Shown one piece after another: positions 8,403-20,480 of a stretch of DNA of 20,797 nt. The stretch is from a virus. A program made the translations under genes and the position numbers. The stretch covers positions 1 through 20,797 of IMG/VR virus record IMGVR_UViG_3300046008_000720; one strand, 5' to 3'. Every line of letters begins with the position of its first letter. Position 1 is the stretch's first letter. The notes under the pieces are model-generated. The model did not search any database, had not been told where the DNA came from, and saw only the letters and a program-made list of their open reading frames with translations.

Positions 8403-8805
8403 AATAAGCCTCCTGTACTTCTAAATCCAACGTCTTAATAGCTGCTGCCACAGACAACTCAATCTTCTTAATCCGTTCCTGGTTGATCATCTGGTCTGAA
8501 TACTTCGTCAACATAGCAAACAATGACGTAGACGTAGACACCAACGCCTGTAAATCCTTCGGATTCGCGTTTGCACCCAATGATGTAATCTGTGCACGTA
8601 ACAAACGAACCATCTGCATCTGCTCCTGTACCTCAACCAACATATCAATAGGCTGTCCCAACTCAAATCCTGGTGGCTTTTCAGACTCACCATACGGGAC
8701 ATTGATTAAATCAGCCAATCGCTTACGGTCTGCATGCTCCGCATATTTGAAATGGAGCGCAAGGTAATCAATTACATCAGGTATAGACAGTTGGAGGTTC
8801 TTCAT
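8371..8805 (-). CDS. Putative terminase small subunit
   Basis: 144 aa, first gene of the minus-strand operon. It is mostly helical: an N-terminal segment with SIPDVIDYLALHFKYAEHAD that could hold a small DNA-binding fold, then a Gln/Met/Leu-rich helix (MLVEVQEQMQMVRLLRAQI), and a C-terminal helix rich in Glu/Ala/Leu. A helical DNA-binding protein of this size at the head of the operon, two genes before the large terminase, fits a small terminase. I cannot show a helix-turn-helix by eye, so the call rests on position and helical character. It has no ribosome site: the -10 box of a consensus promoter lies 9 nt before the ATG, so the mRNA is probably leaderless. Confidence 0.45.
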   Translation of the reverse strand: MKNLQLSIPDVIDYLALHFKYAEHADRKRLADLINVPYGESEKPPGFELGQPIDMLVEVQEQMQMVRLLRAQITSLGANANPKDLQALVSTSTSLFAMLTKYSDQMINQERIKKIELSVAAAIKTLDLEVQEAYFDNLERLLSE

Positions 8806-8814
8806 AAGTGTAGG

Positions 8815-8842
8815 ATTATACCCTACGTTTTAAGTATGTCAA
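8815..8842 (-). promoter_or_regulatory. Consensus sigma70 promoter of the packaging/head operon (near-leaderless)
   Basis: On the minus strand, TTGACA (8842-8837), a 16-bp spacer and TATAAT (8820-8815): both hexamers match the consensus exactly. Only 9 nt (CCTACACTT) lie between the -10 box and the ATG at 8805, so transcription should start 3-4 nt before the start codon, leaving no room for a ribosome site. The promoter is seen; the start point is inferred from usual spacing. Confidence 0.75.
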
Positions 8843-8909
8843 CCAACAAGCTAGAGTGTGGGTATAACCACTCAGGTTGTAAGGTTGAAAAGTGAGATTT
8901 GGAAAATTT

Positions 8910-8921
8910 TGTTGATCAACA
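8910..8921. promoter_or_regulatory. 12-bp perfect palindrome, possible operator between divergent operons
   Basis: TGTTGATCAACA is a perfect palindrome about 70 bp upstream of the minus-strand promoter. On the plus strand it lies between TTGGAA (8899-8904) and CATAAT/TAATAA (8920-8927), a weak promoter-like pair. A dimeric repressor site is one reading. A chance palindrome is possible, and no second copy was seen in the window. Confidence 0.3.
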
Positions 8922-9107
8922 TAATAATGCCTAACAACAGGTCAGTAGGTATATTGTATGCACCCGTAAAGCTATAATGATTACAAGTTAAACGAAACGG
9001 CAAGCAGAACAAGCCTTAGTCATTTTTCCCTTTGTCAAAAATCGAGCAAAAGTTGCGACCTTATAAAATGGAAAGGCACGCATAAAATCTTTTTGGCAAG
9101 TCATAAA

Positions 9108-9120
9108 CGCTCTTTAAAAA
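9108..9120 (+). promoter_or_regulatory. boxA-like antitermination element
   Basis: CGCTCTTTAAAAA closely resembles boxA of rRNA leaders (TGCTCTTTAACA) and of lambda nut sites (CGCTCTTAAAAA). About 27 nt downstream is a small hairpin with a GNRA-type loop (CGCT-GTGA-AGCG, 9147-9158), in the place of a boxB. A nut-like site here would let polymerase read through the hairpins of the right half. A rival reading is a promoter with TTGGCA (9093-9098) and TAAAAA as -10. Confidence 0.4.
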
Positions 9121-9203
9121 TTTGGATAGCTACGCCCTGAATCGTCCGCTGTGAAGCGTGATAAGCACGATGTTGTCAAGGCAAGCGAACAAGTACCGTC
9201 TTG

Positions 9204-9225
9204 AAAGTACCCTTTGGGGTACTTT
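9204..9225 (+). repeat. GTACCC hairpin, copy 1 (TTTG loop)
   Basis: AAAGTACCC-TTTG-GGGTACTTT, a perfect 9-bp stem with a four-base loop inside the noncoding central region. First member of a family repeated through the right half. Confidence 0.85.
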
Positions 9226-9883
9226 GTAAAACGGGTTAATCAAGTCACAGAATACTTGTCTTTGCATCAAACGCAGGCAATCTGAAAGTGCTAGGGTTGA
9301 ACTGACTGAAAAACGGCTTTAATGGTAAGTTATGCGTAACGAACCAGCTTTTAAGGCTTATAAAATCTGCTGGGTAATTAGTCGTCAGGACAGCCACGAG
9401 TACCTCTTTGAGAGAGCATGAATGCGTGGAATCGCCTAATACGGAATGGGTGGTAACAGTCACAAAGGTCAAGTAATGCCTAGAATATATTGAATAGGGC
9501 ATAGAGTGGTGTATCGGATACGTCATAGAATAATGATTGAAATTTAGCGGGAGAGCTACGCCTATAGAATTAAACTTCGTGGGCGGGTTCGACAACAAAC
9601 CGTTTTAAAGTAGATAAACATTTTGAAGGCTTGGTTATCGTGAGAGTGTGGAAGAGTGTGCCTGTTGATTTATCGCAGTAAAATTGAAAGTTCCCGCGTC
9701 AATGTTGTACGACTTTGGTAGAAGTACCAGTTAGGAATTAGTAAAGGTAAAAACCCACGATTTAGAATCACCCGACCTCGGTAGTAAGGCGGACTCTAAT
9801 GCTCACAACTTCACTTTGGCAAGTCCCCCCTGGGGTACTTGGTGACACTTAGTGATTATAGATTTTAAATTTTAAATTACGTT

Positions 9884-9937
9884 ATAACCTTGCTAGGAAC
9901 AAGGTTATTGCGTCAAGCGTGCATTCCGTATGCTTGA
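9884..9937 (+). promoter_or_regulatory. Two strong hairpins in the 5' leader of the next gene
   Basis: ATAACCTTG (9884-9892) pairs perfectly with CAAGGTTAT (9900-9908) over a 7-nt loop. TCAAGCGTGC (9913-9922) pairs with GTATGCTTGA (9928-9937) with two G-U pairs and a 5-nt loop. Neither has a T-tract, so they are more likely leader structures or mRNA-stabilising hairpins than terminators. The gene's AAGGAA site and ATG follow within 30 nt. Confidence 0.6.
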
Positions 9938-9964
9938 TTCAATAACTTTATTAAGGAATTTAAA

Positions 9965-10624
9965 ATGTCAACTCTAAATTTAACTAAAACATCTACAATC
10001 ATCAAATTAGCTCAAGCTGTAAAATCTGAGTTTAACACTCACAGCTTAGAGTCTGACGGCGTAGAGTTTAAACAAGTTACAGCAACAACCCAAAACATCG
10101 GCAACATTGTCAACGCCTCAATCATGGGCAACAGCGCGGGTATTGTTTTAGCCTCTTTTATTCGTGGTGCGTCAAAAGCTGACGTTAGCGAATACTTCAA
10201 CTCGTTAGAAGCGCAAGCCTTAATTTTAGGCTTCGATGCTACTTTTGTCAGTGACTGTTCAAAACGCTTTTTTCATGAAGTTTCAAAACAACGCGCAACT
10301 TTTGGCAAAGACTTAACATTTTTGCCTTTTGAAGACGCGGCTTCTTGCTTACAACGTGAAAAAGGAACAGCTTCAGGTATCAAATGGGGTGACTGGGTTG
10401 ATAATAGCTGGGTAATGAAAGCAATCTATGCTTCAGCTAAATCTGAAAAAGAAACCGAAACCGAAACCGCTCAAGGTGGTGAAGGTGAAGTGAATAAAAC
10501 GCAAGAAGTCTCTATGGTTGATAGAGTGTTCAACGCGGCGGCAACTCTTGAAATCAACGATTTGATTGAATTACAAAATAGAATTAACGCTCTTGTATCA
10601 GAAAAACAATCTGCTACAGCGTAA
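9965..10624 (+). CDS. Unknown protein, first gene of the plus-strand operon
   Basis: 219 aa, ATG with AAGGAA 6-7 nt upstream. Family not recognised. The N-terminal 150 residues look like a compact soluble domain (SAGIVLASFIRGASKADVSE, ALILGFDATFVSDCSKRFFHE), followed by a charged linker with a Glu-Thr repeat (KETETETAQGGEGE) and a C-terminal helix (MVDRVFNAAATLEINDLIEL). This domain-linker-helix layout is common in phage DNA-binding or partner-binding proteins, but no motif is decisive. It is preceded by a long hairpin-rich leader and followed at once by a UUCG hairpin and a hammerhead ribozyme, so its mRNA 3' end is probably defined by ribozyme cleavage at 10670. A strong ribosome site and the leader suggest high expression. 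Confidence 0.8.
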   Translation: MSTLNLTKTSTIIKLAQAVKSEFNTHSLESDGVEFKQVTATTQNIGNIVNASIMGNSAGIVLASFIRGASKADVSEYFNSLEAQALILGFDATFVSDCSKRFFHEVSKQRATFGKDLTFLPFEDAASCLQREKGTASGIKWGDWVDNSWVMKAIYASAKSEKETETETAQGGEGEVNKTQEVSMVDRVFNAAATLEINDLIELQNRINALVSEKQSATA

Positions 10625-10641
10625 GCGTAAGGATTAAAACG

Positions 10642-10661
10642 AAGTACCCTTCGGGGTACTT
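10642..10661 (+). repeat. GTACCC hairpin, copy 2 (UUCG tetraloop)
   Basis: AAGTACCC-TTCG-GGGTACTT: an 8-bp perfect stem closed by C(UUCG)G, the most stable RNA tetraloop class. It lies 17 nt after the stop at 10624 and only 2 nt before hammerhead 1. After ribozyme cleavage it would sit 9 nt from the new 3' end and could block 3' exonucleases. The T-tract after it is too short for a convincing terminator. Confidence 0.9.
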
Positions 10662-10663
10662 TG

Positions 10664-10719
10664 TGTTGTCTGCTGATTTAAACAGCACTGATGAGCCTTC
10701 AGTTCAAGGCGAAACAACA
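10664..10719 (+). ncRNA. Hammerhead ribozyme 1 (type III)
   Basis: Every core position of the hammerhead is present. Stem III is TGTTG (10664-10668) with CAACA (10715-10719). The cleavage triplet is GTC, so cleavage falls after C10670. Stem I is TGCTG (10671-10675), loop ATTTAAA, CAGCA (10683-10687). The core is CTGATGA (10688-10694). Stem II is GCCTT, loop CAGTTC, AAGGC (10695-10710). GAAA (10711-10714) closes the core, with A10714 pairing to U10669. Stem III is the open stem, hence type III. The RNA cuts itself to a 2',3'-cyclic phosphate and a 5'-OH. The gene's ribosome site (AGGAA) begins in the last base of stem III, so release of the 5' strand after cleavage could expose it. Confidence 0.93.
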
Positions 10720-10729
10720 GGAATTATTT

Positions 10730-10861
10730 ATGCAAGTAAAAACAGTTTATCCTTTCGAGTGGGCAGTAACTCGTAAAACATACTTCACAGGTTACATTTA
10801 TCAAAATGATTTCCAAAGAAAACTAGGTCTTAGATTGCAAAATGGGGTTTTAGGACTTTGA
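10730..10861 (+). CDS. 43-aa protein encoded between two hammerhead ribozymes
   Basis: Starts with ATG at 10730, 10 nt after ribozyme stem III, with AGGAA as ribosome site. It encodes 43 residues beginning MQVKTVYPFEWAVTRK, aromatic- and basic-rich (TYFTGYIYQNDFQRK), with no membrane segment or cysteine. Family not recognised. Cleavage at 10670 and 10897 would excise a 227-nt RNA containing this whole frame. The leader is 94 of 95 bases identical to that of the next gene, but the proteins are unrelated after Met-Gln. It is short, and translation is inferred from the ribosome site and intact frame. Confidence 0.6.
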   Translation: MQVKTVYPFEWAVTRKTYFTGYIYQNDFQRKLGLRLQNGVLGL

Positions 10862-10867
10862 TTAAAT

Positions 10868-10889
10868 GAAGTACCCTTCGGGGTACTTC
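10868..10889 (+). repeat. GTACCC hairpin, copy 3 (UUCG tetraloop)
   Basis: GAAGTACCC-TTCG-GGGTACTTC, 9-bp perfect stem with a UUCG loop, 6 nt after the stop of the 43-aa gene and 1 nt before hammerhead 2. It duplicates copy 2. The single base that differs between the two leaders (T to C at 10889) adds one G-C pair to the stem. Confidence 0.9.
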
Positions 10890-10890
10890 G

Positions 10891-10946
10891 TGTTGTCTGC
10901 TGATTTAAACAGCACTGATGAGCCTTCAGTTCAAGGCGAAACAACA
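10891..10946 (+). ncRNA. Hammerhead ribozyme 2 (type III)
   Basis: Identical to hammerhead 1 over all 56 bases. Stem III is TGTTG (10891-10895) with CAACA (10942-10946), cleavage after C10897, stem I TGCTG/CAGCA (10898-10914), core CTGATGA (10915-10921), stem II GCCTT/AAGGC (10922-10937), GAAA (10938-10941). It sits in the 5' leader of the next small gene, with the AGGAA ribosome site overlapping the end of stem III. As a pair with ribozyme 1 it bounds a 227-nt segment (10671-10897). The near-identity of the whole 95-bp leader points to a recent duplication or gene conversion. Confidence 0.93.
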
Positions 10947-10956
10947 GGAATTATTT

Positions 10957-11220
10957 ATGCAAAAATTATCAGTAGTATATCAGCAGTATGAAGAGTTTTC
11001 AGCAACAGCGGCTGACGTAGTACAAGCCGCACTCGTGGAGGGGCATCCTATCATGGAAGCTCTAGCAATGGTCGGCGCAAAAGGTCTAAACGACCTGCAC
11101 CTGATTGATACTGAAAGAGCTGTGGCTTTTCTTGGCTGGGACACATACGCCCAATCTCACGAAATCATGTATCAGGAAAGATTCCCAGAAGCACCAGAAA
11201 CAAAGTGTTACGTTTTATAA
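10957..11220 (+). CDS. Unknown 87-aa protein downstream of hammerhead 2
   Basis: The ATG at 10957 is chosen: it has AGGAA 7 nt upstream and matches the layout of the previous gene. A longer frame from 10918 would translate the ribozyme core and is rejected. The protein (MQKLSVVYQQYEEFSATAAD onward) is helical and acidic, with AALVEGHPIMEALAMVGAKG and a Trp/Tyr region near the C terminus (FLGWDTYAQSHEIMYQ). Family not recognised. The stop codon's last two bases start the next GTACCC hairpin, so the mRNA ends directly in a stable stem. Confidence 0.75.
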   Translation: MQKLSVVYQQYEEFSATAADVVQAALVEGHPIMEALAMVGAKGLNDLHLIDTERAVAFLGWDTYAQSHEIMYQERFPEAPETKCYVL

Positions 11221-11255
11221 GTACCCCAAAGGGTACTTGTTGGTTCCACACAACA
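11219..11255 (+). repeat. GTACCC hairpin, copy 4 (CAAA loop), with a ribozyme-like stem III remnant
   Basis: AAGTACCC-CAAA-GGGTACTT (11219-11238) overlaps the TAA stop of the preceding gene. It is followed directly by TGTTG (11238-11242), an 8-nt loop GTTCCACA and CAACAGGA (11251-11258). TGTTG...CAACAGGA is exactly the stem III and ribosome-site flank of hammerheads 1 and 2, but the catalytic core is missing. It looks like a ribozyme leader that lost its core. No good ORF follows. Confidence 0.6.
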
Positions 11256-11437
11256 GGATTCCCTTTAAAGATACAAATGGGGCATTTATAAAGAATGTGG
11301 ACGGACGTTCACGTTTTATATAACCTTACTATGGGTGTGGGAGTGTTACTTAGGAGACCCTTCGTAACAGTTTCACACTTCAGTACGAACCTTCATTATG
11401 TGACAGGCGAGGCAAAATGTAATCTAGGGTGTACGAT

Positions 11438-11453
11438 GTACCCTTTGGGGTAC
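11438..11453 (+). repeat. GTACCC hairpin, copy 5 (TTTG loop)
   Basis: GTACCC-TTTG-GGGTAC, perfect 6-bp stem in the noncoding region. Not followed by a gene. Confidence 0.85.
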
Positions 11454-11694
11454 TTTGGCGCGGGGTTCACTCAAGAAAAGCCAGCGCGGAGCGGGTTAGT
11501 GCAACGGTTGCGGAATTTGAGACTCTTGTAAAGTATATATTTTATATATAATTGTATAATTTACAGGTGTTTTATGGGCTGAATCAAGGTGTGGCGGGTC
11601 AAGATGGGAACAAAACCACTTGAGAGGTGAATGCACACTATTTGAAATCTGTCAAGAAGAATAGAATTATATTTCTATGTATTCCTCTATAACG

Positions 11695-11967
11695 TTTTGA
11701 CAGGGGTCTCCCCTACTTTTGTAGGAAAAGTGGGAAAATGGCTGCAAGCCGCACCACCACTGGATAGTTGTTTTTAAGCAACAAATGTGGTTTTCGCAGA
11801 GTGGGTGTCAGAATCAAAAAGGGAGCCTATGACAGACCTTTACTTTATAAAAAAAAAAATAATTATATTTATATATATATAATATAACCCCCTTTTTCCG
11901 CACTCCCTGCCCACCAGTCGTGTTCAGTAAAGTTGCAATTAAATAGGGGGAGACCCCTGTCAGAAAA
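11695..11967. repeat. 273-bp nested inverted repeat with an AT-rich centre
   Basis: Outer arms: TTTTGACAGGGGTCTCCCCT (from 11695) and its near-perfect reverse complement at 11944-11967 (one extra G in each of two places). Further complementary blocks occur in nested order: GCAGAGTG (11796-11803) with CACT-CC-CTGC (11901-11910), and AAAAAGGG (11816-11823) with CCCTTTTT (11890-11897). The centre (11835-11887) is almost pure A/T. Side hairpins include CCTAC-TTTT-GTAGG (11712-11725) and an AGTGG/CCACT stem. Readings: a replication origin, a long structured RNA, or a MITE-like element with 20-bp terminal inverted repeats. No clear target-site duplication is seen. Confidence 0.6.
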
Positions 11968-12031
11968 TTATATTAAAAATATTGTTTTGTAAAATATATA
12001 AAACTTGACAGATGTAACTCAAGTGTGTGCA

Positions 12032-12087
12032 AGTTGTCTGCTATTCTTGATAGCACTGATGAGCCTGTCGTCTAAGGCGAAACAACT
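12032..12087 (+). ncRNA. Hammerhead ribozyme 3 (type III, diverged)
   Basis: A third complete hammerhead with different stems. Stem III is AGTTG (12032-12036) with CAACT (12083-12087), cleavage after C12038 (GTC). Stem I is TGCTA, loop TTCTTGA, TAGCA (12039-12055). The core is CTGATGA (12056-12062). Stem II is GCCT, 8-nt loop, AGGC (12063-12078), then GAAA (12079-12082). Compared with copies 1 and 2, one pair in stem III (T-A to A-T) and one in stem I (G-C to A-T) changed on both strands, which supports the fold. It lacks the GTACCC hairpin upstream. Downstream are twin 31-bp repeats, a GTACCC hairpin and three tiny genes. Confidence 0.92.
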
Positions 12088-12159
12088 CATAGGGCATAGG
12101 ATTAACTTAATCCTCCCCACTCACAAGGTCATAGGGCATAGGATTAACTTAATCCTCCC
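12087..12159 (+). repeat. Two identical 31-bp direct repeats, each with a palindrome
   Basis: Copies at 12087-12117 and 12129-12159 (period 42) are identical and begin TCATAGGGCATAGG. Each holds AGGATTAA-C-TTAATCCT (12098-12114 and 12140-12156), a 17-nt palindrome. The first copy starts on the last base of hammerhead 3. They could be paired protein-binding sites or two RNA hairpins in the leader of the tiny genes downstream. Confidence 0.8.
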
Positions 12160-12166
12160 TCACCAT

Positions 12167-12182
12167 GTACCCCAAAGGGTAC
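12167..12182 (+). repeat. GTACCC hairpin, copy 6 (CAAA loop)
   Basis: GTACCC-CAAA-GGGTAC, 26 nt before the first of three tiny ORFs. Perfect 6-bp stem. Confidence 0.85.
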
Positions 12183-12208
12183 TTTGAACCATCTAATAGG
12201 ACATACAC

Positions 12209-12307
12209 ATGAACCGCCCAATGTACGCAATACTCCAATCCGTTACAGCTTTCCTCACGAGCCATGCAAAAGGGTCTGCATCCAACAACCCAGCGTGTGA
12301 GGCTTAA
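12209..12307 (+). CDS. Small ORF, 32 aa
   Basis: ATG with AGGA 8 nt upstream (AATAGGACATACACATG). It encodes 32 residues starting MNRPMYAILQSVTAFLTS, with a weakly amphipathic N-terminal half and a polar end. Family not recognised. The next ORF starts 1 nt after its stop with its ribosome site (GAGG) inside this frame, which suggests a real coupled unit. It lies in the processed region after hammerhead 3. Confidence 0.45.
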   Translation: MNRPMYAILQSVTAFLTSHAKGSASNNPACEA

Positions 12308-12308
12308 A

Positions 12309-12398
12309 ATGTTAATAAACGGTCTTTTAGCAGTAGTCTTCTCTTTGTCCTTGGTATCCTTGATATGTCTTCTTGCTTGGAGAAGTATTCATGGATGA
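12309..12398 (+). CDS. Small single-pass membrane protein, 29 aa
   Basis: ATG with GAGG 7 nt upstream. It encodes 29 residues that are almost entirely one membrane helix (LLAVVFSLSLVSLICLLAW), followed by RSIHG. No soluble domain. The position just before a secreted SleB-type hydrolase suggests a lysis or membrane accessory role, which is inference only. It overlaps the next ORF by 8 nt. Confidence 0.5.
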   Translation: MLINGLLAVVFSLSLVSLICLLAWRSIHG

Positions 12399-12468
12399 TT
12401 TACACATCATGCTTCACGAATCCTTGCAAGAGCTTTTAATCCTCCTTGAACTCTTAACCATTGATTAA
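12391..12468 (+). CDS. Small leucine-rich acidic ORF, 25 aa
   Basis: ATG at 12391 inside the end of the preceding ORF, with GGAG about 9 nt upstream (TTGGAGAAGTATTCATG). It encodes 25 residues, acidic and Leu-rich (ESLQELLILLELLTID), one amphipathic helix with no basic residue besides two His. Family not recognised. The overlap and ribosome site support translation. It may bind its membrane-protein neighbour. Confidence 0.45.
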   Translation: MDDLHIMLHESLQELLILLELLTID

Positions 12469-12512
12469 GTTTCATTTGATAAAATCCATTCAACTCAACA
12501 GATGGAAAAACA

Positions 12513-12959
12513 ATGAAATATCTAATTCTTCTCCTTGCGTCAATGAATATACACGCCGCCACCGCTCAACAAACGTGTTTGGCATCCGTAATATGGCATG
12601 AGAGCCGTTCACAGCCTGTTTCAGCTCAACTTGATATAGTGACGGCTGTAACTTTGAATCGTGCCTCAGACAGGCTTGTAGACGGTCATTCTCGGTCAGG
12701 CAGTAGAGTTAATCCGAAGTTACTTAATGTATGTAAAGTAATTCATGAGAAGGGACAGTATCAGTGGGTGAAGCGTCAGCCACTTGTACCGCATAAGGAT
12801 ATGGAATCGTGGGAGCAATCCTTGAAGTTGGCAGGAGAAATACTTCGCCAGAGGTATTATGTAGTTGGGAGCAGGAGATATTTTAATAACAGGACGTTAG
12901 GTATTTTACACAAGACAAACACAAAGCCATTGGCGATAGCGTCAATGGTGGCTTATTAA
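12513..12959 (+). CDS. Secreted cell-wall hydrolase, SleB/Hydrolase_2 type
   Basis: 148 aa. Residues 1-18 look like a signal peptide (MKYLILLLASMNIHAATA). The mature part matches the SleB-like hydrolase pattern: CLASVIWHESRSQ (Glu30 in the place of the catalytic Glu of 'Ea.gE'), then VTAVTLNRASD (the 'vvlNRv' segment), NVCKVIHEKGQYQW (the 'vc.Vv.q..qFsw' segment), and LKLAGEIL. This family cleaves peptidoglycan as a lytic transglycosylase or related enzyme. With an M15 endolysin also present, the phage has two wall-degrading enzymes. This one can reach the periplasm by the Sec route without a holin. It may act in entry, superinfection control or a second lysis step. A GGA ribosome site precedes the ATG. 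A Lys/Arg-rich C-terminal half is notable. Confidence 0.75.
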   Translation: MKYLILLLASMNIHAATAQQTCLASVIWHESRSQPVSAQLDIVTAVTLNRASDRLVDGHSRSGSRVNPKLLNVCKVIHEKGQYQWVKRQPLVPHKDMESWEQSLKLAGEILRQRYYVVGSRRYFNNRTLGILHKTNTKPLAIASMVAY

Positions 12960-13172: not shown

Positions 13173-13364
13173 ATGAGAAAAGAAACATTTGAAGCACAAA
13201 TAATTCATGTTGGGTTATCAACATTTTTCAACAACGCGAGAAGTGTTGAAGGAATGCGAGTTGGAGAGGTGACTGCTTATTTGAACAAGTGGTATGACCA
13301 TCACTTGCCAGACAGAAGTGAAGCGGAAAGATTTGAGTCATTGGTTGGGTACATTCTCCGATAG
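13173..13364 (+). CDS. Unknown 63-aa protein
   Basis: The ATG at 13173 follows TTGGAGTTA, a ribosome-site context shared by several genes downstream. A TTG at 13161 is part of that site, not a start. The protein (MRKETFEAQIIHVGLSTFFN onward) is a small mixed helical protein ending in a Glu/Arg-rich segment (DRSEAERFESLVGYILR). Family not recognised. Its TAG stop is the first of a series of stop codons that leads into the structured leader of the next gene. Confidence 0.7.
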   Translation: MRKETFEAQIIHVGLSTFFNNARSVEGMRVGEVTAYLNKWYDHHLPDRSEAERFESLVGYILR

Positions 13365-13375
13365 GGTTTAGGATT

Positions 13376-13434
13376 TAGTTCATGTGACAGGTGAACTACG
13401 TCCTACGTCCTGTAGGAAGTACCCTTTGGGGTAC
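13376..13434 (+). ncRNA. Three-hairpin leader RNA, copy A
   Basis: Three stems follow with only 1-4 nt between them. P1 is TAGTTCA-TGTGACAGG-TGAACTA (13376-13398). P2 is CCTACG-TCC-TGTAGG (13402-13416). P3 is GTACCC-TTTG-GGGTAC (13419-13434). The ribosome site TTGGAG lies about 12 nt after P3. The P1 loop ACAGG and the P2 segment CCTGT are complementary and could form a loop-loop contact. Copies B and C repeat this; P1 covaries in copy C. Confidence 0.7.
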
Positions 13435-13458
13435 ATTGATTATTATTTGGAGTTAAAG

Positions 13459-13701
13459 ATGACGTTACGAAGAATGAGTGAAACAGTGAAAGGCATTGTG
13501 TATTTCAGTGCTGATAAGTGTGTAGACGGTGGGATTATCTATCGTGGTTATTTGTCACTAAAGACGAATATTGGAAGTTTTACCATGCAAAGTAAGGTTT
13601 TCAGGTCTTTCCTTGACTGCTCAAGTCATGTTGAGGAATTGAAGTTTGATTTATTAAATTATGATAATGACGCGCAGTCGTATTTACGAATGTTTGTGTA
13701 A
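13459..13701 (+). CDS. Unknown 80-aa protein behind leader copy A
   Basis: The ATG at 13459 follows TTGGAGTTAAAG. A longer frame reading from 13384 translates the leader hairpins (…KYPLGY…) and is rejected, because the same 'peptide' appears before unrelated genes. The protein (MTLRRMSETVKGIVYFSADK onward) looks beta-rich: GIVYFSADKCVDGGIIYRGYLSLKT has alternating strands, then a helical C-terminal third. Family not recognised. Together with the next two genes it forms an unbroken set. Confidence 0.7.
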   Translation: MTLRRMSETVKGIVYFSADKCVDGGIIYRGYLSLKTNIGSFTMQSKVFRSFLDCSSHVEELKFDLLNYDNDAQSYLRMFV

Positions 13702-13976: not shown

Positions 13977-14174
13977 ATGATTAAAGTAGAAATGAACGAT
14001 GGCAGTATCCATTTGATTAACCCTGCACATATAGTTAGGGTTACGAATGATGGAAGGACAATGGACATCTTTTGTGTGAACACGAGTTTCTTTTTCAAGT
14101 TGACGGAAGAGGATTGGGGTAACGGGTTGAGTCCTGCTCGATGGAATTTATTGTGGGAAGAGTTGAGTAAATAG
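13977..14174 (+). CDS. Unknown 65-aa protein
   Basis: The ATG at 13977 comes 1 nt after the previous stop, with AGGAG in the preceding codons, so translation is coupled. The protein (MIKVEMNDGSIHLINPAHIV onward) has a beta-hairpin-like N-terminal half (VEMNDGSIHLIN, IVRVTNDGRTMDIF), resembling small FlbD-like or LytTR-like strands, and a Trp-rich C-terminal end (EEDWGNGLSPARWNLLWEEL). The likeness is only in pattern. The TAG stop again starts a stop-codon-rich stretch before the next leader. Confidence 0.65.
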   Translation: MIKVEMNDGSIHLINPAHIVRVTNDGRTMDIFCVNTSFFFKLTEEDWGNGLSPARWNLLWEELSK

Positions 14175-14185
14175 GGTTTAGATTC

Positions 14186-14244
14186 TAGTTCATGTGACAG
14201 GTGAACTACGACCTACATCCTGTAGGAAGTACCCTTTGGGGTAC
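14186..14244 (+). ncRNA. Three-hairpin leader RNA, copy B
   Basis: P1 TAGTTCA-TGTGACAGG-TGAACTA (14186-14208) equals copy A. P2 CCTACA-TCC-TGTAGG (14212-14226) has an A-T pair where copy A has G-U. P3 is GTACCC-TTTG-GGGTAC (14229-14244). The spacing to the TTGGAG ribosome site is the same as in copy A. The proteins behind copies A and B are unrelated, so the conservation belongs to the leader. Confidence 0.7.
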
Positions 14245-14268
14245 ATTGATTATTATTTGGAGTTAGAA

Positions 14269-14778
14269 ATGATTAACATAGAAAAATTAACCCGATTAGG
14301 TTACATGACTTTGATTGAAGATGAAGACTTGGGTGTAATTCATGAGTTTGTTGCGCCCTTGTGGTTGTTGCACCAATCGAAGTGGGAAGGACACATCACT
14401 GATTTGCGTGGTGTGTTACCTGATGGTAAAACGGGTATTGATTGGGAAGATGAGAAGTACGACTTGACAGAGAATAATTGGGTTCAGTTAATTAAGACAC
14501 CAACGTTGACGATGCCTTGTAATAGAACGAGGGTAGCGAATTTGCTTGATTACCTTGCATTTGAGGGGGAGGATTTTGAGCAGAATCCGACAACAAATCA
14601 CATTTGGAATAGTATTCAAATTGTGAGGCACATTTGGAATGTGCAGTGGCAGAGCGAGTTTGTGAGAACACATTTGGGAATTGTGCTTGAGTATTTGATT
14701 CAGTACGAGAAGGGTTCTGAGTCTGAAATTCTTGCTCAAGCGATTGAGTTGCGTGATGAGTATGGATTTGATGAGTAG
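14269..14778 (+). CDS. Unknown 169-aa protein behind leader copy B
   Basis: The ATG at 14269 follows TTGGAGTTAGAA; an upstream extension would translate the leader. The protein starts MINIEKLTRLGYMTLIEDED, is acidic and Trp-rich (EFVAPLWLLHQSKWEG, NHIWNSIQIVRHIWNVQWQS), and ends in helices (SESEILAQAIELRDEYGFDE). No signal peptide or membrane segment. Family not recognised. High Trp and acidic content is common in phage inhibitors of host proteins, but no target can be named. Confidence 0.75.
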   Translation: MINIEKLTRLGYMTLIEDEDLGVIHEFVAPLWLLHQSKWEGHITDLRGVLPDGKTGIDWEDEKYDLTENNWVQLIKTPTLTMPCNRTRVANLLDYLAFEGEDFEQNPTTNHIWNSIQIVRHIWNVQWQSEFVRTHLGIVLEYLIQYEKGSESEILAQAIELRDEYGFDE

Positions 14779-14786
14779 ATAGGTTC

Positions 14787-14858
14787 TAGGGCATACGAAC
14801 AAGTTTTGTGTGCCTTACTGCCTAGCAATTCTGTTAGGAAGTACCCCAAAGGGTACTT
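14787..14858 (+). ncRNA. Three-hairpin leader RNA, copy D (variant)
   Basis: P1 differs: TAGGGCATAC (14787-14796) pairs with GTGTGCCTTA (14808-14817) over an 11-nt loop. P2 is CCTAGCA-ATTC-TGTTAGG (14821-14838), longer than in the other copies. P3 is AAGTACCC-CAAA-GGGTACTT (14839-14858). The P2/P3 order and the TTGGAG ribosome site are kept. P1 still begins with TAG. Confidence 0.6.
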
Positions 14859-14877
14859 TGATTATTTGGAGTTAGAA

Positions 14878-15186
14878 ATGATTAAGTTATCTGATTATGT
14901 AGAATTAAATATGTTTGACCATACGCAGTACAAAGTTATTGCGTTGCCTATTCTCTTAGTGATAGGGGAACGGGAAATTATTGGTGAGTATCGTCACCAT
15001 CTTCTTTTCGATGTGATTTCTTCAAAAAGCGAATTAGAGTCAGCTGGGTATTGCACGAAAGTTAAGTACAAAGGGTTGTTCCCGTTTCGTTTTGGGAATT
15101 ACCTTGTATCAAACAAGACGCTGCTTTGCAGAGCTGAAGGCTCTGACAAGTGGATAAAGATTGACGTTGAATGGAGTATAAAATGA
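14878..15186 (+). CDS. Unknown 102-aa protein behind leader copy D
   Basis: The ATG at 14878 follows TTGGAGTTAGAA. The longer frame from 14806 reads through the hairpins and is rejected. The protein (MIKLSDYVELNMFDHTQYKV onward) has strand-like hydrophobic runs (VIALPILLVIGEREIIGEY) and a C-terminal Trp/Lys/Asp segment. Family not recognised. It overlaps the next start by 3 nt (ATGA), so the two are coupled. Confidence 0.7.
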   Translation: MIKLSDYVELNMFDHTQYKVIALPILLVIGEREIIGEYRHHLLFDVISSKSELESAGYCTKVKYKGLFPFRFGNYLVSNKTLLCRAEGSDKWIKIDVEWSIK

Positions 15187-17682: not shown

Positions 17683-17710
17683 AGTTTAGAGTTTAGAGTT
17701 TAGAGTTTAG
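17683..17710 (+). repeat. Four tandem AGTTTAG heptamers
   Basis: AGTTTAG occurs four times head to tail directly after a stop codon. Because 7 is not a multiple of 3, the TAG falls in all three frames within 21 nt. Degenerate two-unit versions precede leader copies A (GGTTTAG-GATTTAG) and B (GGTTTAG-ATTCTAG). The last unit overlaps the start of P1. Confidence 0.85.
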
Positions 17711-17768
17711 TCCCTGTGACAGGGGGACTACGCCCTACATTCTGTAGGAAGTACCCCAAAGGGTACTT
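17708..17768 (+). ncRNA. Three-hairpin leader RNA, copy C (covarying P1)
   Basis: P1 is TAGTCCC-TGTGACAGG-GGGACTA (17708-17730). The loop is identical to copies A and B, but three positions of the stem changed on both strands (TTCA/TGAA to TCCC/GGGA), keeping 7 pairs. P2 is CCTACA-TTC-TGTAGG (17734-17748). P3 is AAGTACCC-CAAA-GGGTACTT (17749-17768). The conserved loop with a covarying stem is strong evidence for selection on RNA structure. Confidence 0.75.
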
Positions 17769-17791
17769 TAAATTTAAATTGGAGTTATATC

Positions 17792-20214: not shown

Positions 20215-20480
20215 GGCGTAGGTTATACAAACAAGGTGGTGTTCAGCTCCTCGTAGTAACGGAGACTTTGCAATCGGATGTGAAGAAGAGTTACAAGATA
20301 TTACGTGGTGGCAAGTGGTACAGGTTGCATGAGGGATGGATTGAGAAGAGTGGTGAGACGATTGCTGAAATCATGAAGTACCCTGAAGGGTACATTGTTC
20401 ATGAAGAAAGTTCAGAAAGTGTTGCTTGGATTAACAAGTATGACCTGCCTGGTGCAGAAGTTGAGGAGATGAAATGTTAA
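20208..20480 (+). CDS. Unknown 90-aa protein
   Basis: ATG overlapping the previous stop by 7 nt, with GGGAAG 6 nt upstream. Beta-rich, SH3-like in pattern (VQLLVVTETLQSDVKKSYKI, LRGGKWYRLHEGWIEKSGET). Inside it, residues KYPEGY are encoded by a GTACCC hairpin that reads in frame. Family not recognised. It overlaps the next gene by 7 nt. Confidence 0.65.
   Translation: MLGRRLYKQGGVQLLVVTETLQSDVKKSYKILRGGKWYRLHEGWIEKSGETIAEIMKYPEGYIVHEESSESVAWINKYDLPGAEVEEMKC
20378..20393 (+). repeat. GTACCC hairpin inside a coding region (TGAA loop)
   Basis: GTACCC-TGAA-GGGTAC, perfect stem within the 90-aa gene, encoding part of KYPEGY. It is the only intragenic copy and the only one with a TGAA loop. It may be a hairpin captured by the gene, or a chance match preserved as coding sequence. 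Confidence 0.7.

Follow-up and report, generated by a model that had tools for sequence, protein, structure and literature searches.

Type III hammerhead ribozymes in hairpin-ribozyme-gene cassettes of a phage: predicted signals for RNA processing

The closest described counterparts of the locus analyzed here are the prophage hammerheads reported by Perreault et al. (2011; PMC3088659), where single genes or short blocks of genes often have multiple ribozymes beside them. Triple clusters of this kind cleave in vitro, and one cluster does so in E. coli. These authors proposed that the ribozymes process polycistronic phage RNA, and they left the function of phage hammerheads open. The same study (PMC3088659) describes the HHphage hammerhead of haloviruses HF1 and HF2, which lies 13 nt upstream of a start codon.

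The present locus resembles the prophage clusters (PMC3088659) in that its hammerheads sit close together around single genes or short blocks. It differs from them in belonging to another phage lineage with other genes, in carrying a duplicated cassette of hairpin, ribozyme and Shine-Dalgarno (SD) sequence, and in that one of its copies ends a long, structured, non-coding stretch. With HF1/HF2 it shares the placement of a ribozyme shortly before a phage start codon (about 13 nt there, about 11 nt from ribozyme to ATG at the small genes A and B described below), but the HF1/HF2 element is a variant hammerhead of a haloarchaeal virus, whereas the copies described here have the canonical core and come from a tailed phage distantly related to SHOU24 and PMBT3. 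Retrozymes and viroid-like circular RNAs likewise have directly oriented type III hammerheads around a structured RNA; unlike these, the present locus bears no signs of a retroelement or RNA replicon, and its ribozymes are placed among ordinary genes of the phage.

The DNA analyzed, hereafter the window, is the entire virus record IMGVR_UViG_3300046008_000720, with a length of 20,797 bases. Genes for terminase, portal and head protease lie on its minus strand, and a series of small genes starts at about 9.9 kb on its plus strand. At about 30-34% identity, the terminase and portal match those of Vibrio phage SHOU24 and Pseudomonas phage PMBT3; the best phage matches are at about 33% identity, and a GTDB search by terminase found no relative. 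A second sample holds the same phage as two contigs, one of which (G001) is 99.9% identical to the window up to position 11281, while the other (G013, 70 kb) begins at window position 11155 and is 99.96% identical. The two contigs overlap by 127 bases, window positions 11155-11281, which is where the phage of the second sample is split. The window is a piece of a tailed phage with a full size of perhaps 80-95 kb. A relative, L128, has a terminase 80% identical to that of the window.

Hammerheads 1, 2 and 3 occupy positions 10664-10719, 10891-10946 and 12032-12087 of the plus strand, with cleavage predicted after positions 10670, 10897 and 12038, respectively. The first two copies share the same 54 nt without a mismatch, and the third is 80% identical to them. 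In each case (10665-10718, 10892-10945 and 12033-12086) the elements follow one another without fault in the order stem III-C17-stem I-CUGAUGA-stem II-GAAA-stem III', with stems I and II closed by loops and stem III open. The type III core (CUGAUGA, GAAA and the NUH triplet, here GUC) is exact in all three copies and in the hammerhead of L128; in the window copies stem I has 5 bp (7 in copy 3), stem II 4-5 bp and stem III 6 bp. The pattern CTGATGA-N8..38-CGAAA occurs three times on the plus strand of the window and not at all on the minus strand, against 0.12 occurrences expected from dinucleotide shuffles. Furthermore, all three copies match the full length of the Rfam type III model (RF00008, Hammerhead_3; model positions 1-54) in cmscan, with scores of 40.5, 40.5 and 44.2 bits and per-record E values of 1.7e-10 to 1.9e-9. 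The pattern count and the full-length model matches exclude a chance origin of the three motifs. When RF00008 was run on the window, G001 and G013, it returned the three known hammerheads and no further ones, and the type I model (RF00163) found none on G013, G001 and G002.

An earlier note on this DNA had proposed the comparison with the Rfam model and had named the absence of a match above threshold as a refuting outcome. Taken literally, that outcome is what the curated threshold returns, since no window match is listed at the gathering score of 48.5 bits. Eleven other phage type III hammerheads, from seven contigs, score 34-47 bits and every one of them misses the same threshold, so the curated cut-off is too strict for phage type III hammerheads. 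Annotation at the gathering score of RF00008 will overlook elements such as those scored here.

Copy 3 differs from copies 1 and 2 by paired changes, from G-C to A-U in stem I and from U-A to A-U in the outermost pair of stem III. Because copies 1 and 2 share a 110-nt duplication with 94% identity, they represent a single independent case, and the independent evidence comes from copies 1/2, copy 3 and the L128 version. Among these three distinct versions six stem pairs differ on both sides, arguing that the hammerhead fold has been conserved. Secondary-structure models of longer stretches prefer other pairings over stem III, which is most strongly outcompeted in copy 3 (within a long inverted repeat) and in copy 2 (with downstream sequence); models of this kind leave out tertiary contacts and co-transcriptional folding. 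Judged by sequence and fold, the three are genuine type III hammerheads, and they are predicted to cleave themselves. The earlier note had claimed three complete ribozymes, all on the coding strand of the phage contig, with the fold of copy 3 kept under change; the presence of all elements, the positions of genes and ribozymes, and the altered pairs in stems I and III bear this out, and the L128 version adds further support.

Hammerheads 1 and 2 are each part of a 110-nt cassette (10637-10746 and 10864-10973, plus strand) that has been duplicated at a spacing of 227 nt, and that consists, in order, of a hairpin, the ribozyme, an SD sequence, and a start codon with the first codons of a gene. 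The hairpin of the first cassette, ACGAAGTACCC-TTCG-GGGTACTTTGT at 10639-10664, has a predicted energy of -16 kcal/mol and abuts stem III of hammerhead 1; its second copy, at 10866-10891, abuts stem III of hammerhead 2 in the same way. The gene upstream of the first cassette (9965-10624) encodes 219 aa with no confident family. Downstream of hammerhead 1, an SD-like AGGAA (10719-10723) and the ATG at 10730 together span 10719-10732; this ATG opens small gene A (10730-10861; 43 aa, no family match). Hammerhead 2 is followed by small gene B (10957-11220; 87 aa, predicted to be helical in a low-confidence model), and at both copies an SD is present and 15 nt separate the GAAA from the ATG. The claim that two of the ribozymes lie in the 5' leaders of small genes is correct, with AGGAA and then an ATG at 10730 or 10957: copies 1 and 2 lie on the gene strand directly 5' of a start codon, and copy 3 does not. 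The upstream hairpin, the cassette duplication, the conserved position in L128 and the different setting of copy 3 go beyond what the note had described.

The cassette hairpins were considered as typical intrinsic terminators and rejected, in that hairpin 1 has no clean U-run and the hairpins at 10639 and 10866 are both absent from a terminator scan. These UUCG-type hairpins belong to a family of the form GTACCC-N4-GGGTAC that has 11 copies, all in the plus-strand half of the window (at 9207, 10644, 10871, 11221, 11438, 12167, 13419, 14229, 14841, 17751 and 20378), where shuffling predicts none. Most of these hairpins are intergenic and have no ribozyme, and one, at 20378, falls within an open reading frame.

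In L128, a single hammerhead at 1470-1521, with stem sequences different from those of the window, lies directly 5' of a gene homologous to gene B (37% identical over 41 aa, with a pairwise E of 6e-9). The module of hammerhead and gene B runs in the same direction as the late genes in L128, and in the direction opposite to theirs in the window. The two components co-occur in the window, in its near-identical copy and in L128; the hammerhead was absent from more distant relatives, and gene B was absent from the nine relatives other than L128 that were searched for it. A hairpin also abuts stem III in L128, where it is the palindrome AACCCTATGGCATAGGGTT, unrelated in sequence to the window hairpin, so the position of the hairpin has been kept and its sequence has not. 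Non-coding regions of the window and L128 align too poorly for an analysis of covariation.

Hammerhead 3 has a different setting. No SD with a start codon occurs within 55 nt downstream of it, and the nearest predicted gene start is 176 nt away. Upstream lies a long imperfect inverted repeat, or rod, with its 5' arm at 11632-11714 and its 3' arm (86 nt) at 11946-12031 of the plus strand; the last pair ends directly before stem III of the ribozyme, and the rod closes a non-coding stretch of about 800 nt. Two exact 31-nt direct repeats (12087-12117 and 12129-12159) follow directly after the ribozyme. The region 11215-12037 folds far better than its shuffles (z -7.5), mainly through the rod, and the rod interior (11715-11945) shows no excess of structure over shuffles (z -0.3). 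When the whole stretch around copy 3 is folded in models, the hammerhead does not form. The minus strand of the rod is nearly as stable as the plus strand (z -6.9 vs -7.7), and the rod may thus be an inverted repeat at the level of DNA rather than RNA. An 18-bp helix (11219-11236 with 11438-11455) was set aside, as each arm is a self-palindromic repeat able to fold by itself.

Searches for relatives of this region gave nothing further: an Rfam search of the non-coding stretches at 8700-10000 and 10500-12600 for known large RNAs returned nothing credible, blastn of 11220-12220 against phage records gave no match, and a pattern scan for further copies of the rod arms found them in the same phage only. 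A retrozyme or viroid-like element was also considered and rejected: L128 has a single ribozyme, the 799-nt region has no second copy in the 70-kb contig G013, and no target-site duplication was seen by eye around the rod. Most likely, hammerhead 3 forms the 3' end of the gene B/non-coding transcript, a reading held with less confidence than that for copies 1 and 2. A bolder combination, to which we lend only tentative and rather doubtful credence, is that hammerhead 3 matures the 3' end of an undescribed phage non-coding RNA (closed by the rod and at most about 800 nt long) and that a hairpin followed by a type III hammerhead is a general phage device for making 3' ends, by cleavage instead of termination. 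Further downstream, positions 12513-12959 encode a small protein that looks secreted and weakly matches Hydrolase_2 (cell wall hydrolase).

The hairpin-ribozyme arrangement was also sought in two surveys of viral contigs with hammerhead patterns, the second using a different pattern, with types assigned by stem pairing; both collections hold 120 contigs from among the matches listed and are not random samples. A hairpin was counted when it had -8 kcal/mol or better and ended at the first stem of the ribozyme, a rule fixed on survey 1 and left unchanged in survey 2, and redundant entries were thinned on the basis of 8-mers shared in the upstream 100 nt rather than by a phylogeny. Among the matches listed, such a hairpin abuts stem III in 19 of 35 non-redundant type III ribozymes of survey 1 (54%; control 22/140, p 7e-6) and in 22 of 27 of survey 2 (81%; control 19/108, p 8e-10). 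Type I ribozymes have an upstream hairpin in only 5-9% of cases (2/44 and 8/91, among the matches listed), and the contrast between the types is strong in both surveys (p 8e-7 and 7e-13). Under a harsher clustering of survey 1, the hairpin is found with 7 of 14 type III and 0 of 19 type I ribozymes. In both surveys the gap between hairpin and stem III is mostly about 1 nt or less. The newer result is this rule, that phage type III hammerheads usually lie directly 3' of a stable hairpin; no mention of it was found in the literature searched, which was mostly outside subscription journals, and a prior report is possible.

Start codons follow both types. Among the matches listed, an ATG opening at least 50 codons occurs within 80 nt (all of them within 60) after 28/32 and 23/27 type III ribozymes, and within 80 nt after 34/43 and 66/89 type I ribozymes, compared to about 35% (31-40%) for controls at random positions. 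A strict SD test was positive for 29/37 in survey 1, among the matches listed (control 18%); for the type III ribozymes of survey 2 it showed no enrichment (5/27, control 18/108), perhaps because many of the hosts do not use SD sequences. The earlier note had called three hammerheads in 1.4 kb unusual, and this does not hold: clusters have been published (PMC3088659), and among the matches listed in survey 2 two or more hammerheads occur on 24 of 99 contig pieces, about a quarter. Clustered phage hammerheads are already known, and the window adds a further case. The maximum among the matches listed is an array of seven on one viral contig (L091), and two others (L224 and L269) have three type III hammerheads each.

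The best way to explain these arrangements, and probably the right one, is that the hammerheads are cis-acting signals by which a polycistronic RNA of the phage is cut into mRNAs that carry a hairpin cap at the 3' end and a structured leader with a 5'-OH. The grounds for this proposal are the sequence and fold of the ribozymes, their positional conservation, the layout of hairpin, ribozyme and start codon, and the recurrence of that layout in other phages; cleavage in the cell, protection of the ends and an effect on translation are what we infer from them. The plus-strand operon would be transcribed and each hammerhead would cut its own RNA co-transcriptionally. In the two cassettes, the mRNA upstream of the cut would then end in the stable hairpin, a tail of roughly 6-11 nt and a 2',3'-cyclic phosphate, and the downstream mRNA would begin with a 5'-OH and the hairpins of stems I and II, directly before the ribosome-binding site of gene A or B. 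Either end should be a poor substrate for exonucleases and for decay that depends on a 5'-monophosphate, and neighboring genes would in this way receive separate, stable messages; the cut would also remove a short pairing beside the ribosome-binding site. At hammerhead 3, the long rod would take the place of the small hairpin.

Stabilization of both ends is expected from bacterial mRNA decay in general. A type III hammerhead is cut near the 5' end of the motif, so that the hairpins of the ribozyme stay with the downstream RNA and the upstream RNA ends as an open strand, whereas a type I hammerhead is cut near its 3' end and leaves the upstream RNA with a closed stem III hairpin. The presence of an upstream hairpin with type III and its absence with type I is as expected if phages need hairpin-capped 3' ends. 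The survey contrast accordingly offers a testable answer to what phage hammerheads are for, namely selection for protected 3' ends, and the window provides a compact natural test set, made up of a pair of identical cassettes, a copy that has diverged, and a relative whose hairpin is different.

The upstream hairpin could instead be merely an insulator that shields stem III from pairing with upstream sequence, with the ribozymes having little effect on mRNA stability. The tight spacing of about 1 nt between most hairpins and stem III would suit such a role, as would the ease with which flanking sequences disturb stem III in the models. However, type I ribozymes, which would equally require insulation, generally go without the hairpin (2/44 and 8/91), and the window hairpin itself competes with stem III in the models, so that this explanation seems unlikely. 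The same competing pairings, which give two possible states, along with the leader position beside the ribosome-binding site, might suggest that the hammerheads are mainly switches, in which a protein, an ion or a small molecule alters cleavage and hence the expression of genes A and B. We consider this quite improbable, since no extra conserved, aptamer-like domain lies between ribozyme and gene and the competing pairings are model predictions only.

Pairs of ribozymes could also excise and ligate small circular RNAs, a 227-nt piece with gene A from hammerheads 1 and 2 and a 1141-nt piece from hammerheads 2 and 3. The stem III strands are identical and the ribozymes equally oriented, so that ligation would regenerate a hammerhead at the joint, and the rod resembles rod-like circular RNAs. 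Against this, the single hammerhead of L128 cannot excise anything (although the L128 contig is a fragment), the start codons after most phage hammerheads fit mRNA leaders, and Perreault et al. (PMC3088659) detected neither circles nor spliced products from clustered phage hammerheads; excision of circles is very unlikely here. Copies 1 and 2 could, finally, be passive by-products of a recent duplication, their ribozymes decayed or inactive relics, as a 110-nt duplication at 94% identity might suggest. This is hardly credible in view of copy 3 and the L128 copy, which have diverged by paired changes while the cores are fully conserved. Processing of polycistronic RNA into end-protected messages is the reading that we favor.

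Several other features of the intergenic DNA were observed. In repeated intergenic cassettes at 13361-13462, 14171-14272, 14835-14885 and 17694-17787, two or three hairpins are stacked ahead of a TTGGAGTTA-type SD and an ATG; these cassettes have the same role as those with hammerheads but lack a ribozyme. The first two of these are 93% identical to each other, and the third (14835-14885) is a shorter match. Long non-coding stretches lie 5' of the first plus-strand gene in both the window (8812-9960) and L128 (1-554), and TAGCTACG-type motifs occur in both; the L128 stretch folds better than its shuffles (z -4.4). On the minus strand, positions 8842-8815 hold a perfect match to a sigma-70 type promoter (TTGACA-16-TATAAT), upstream of the terminase and head genes.
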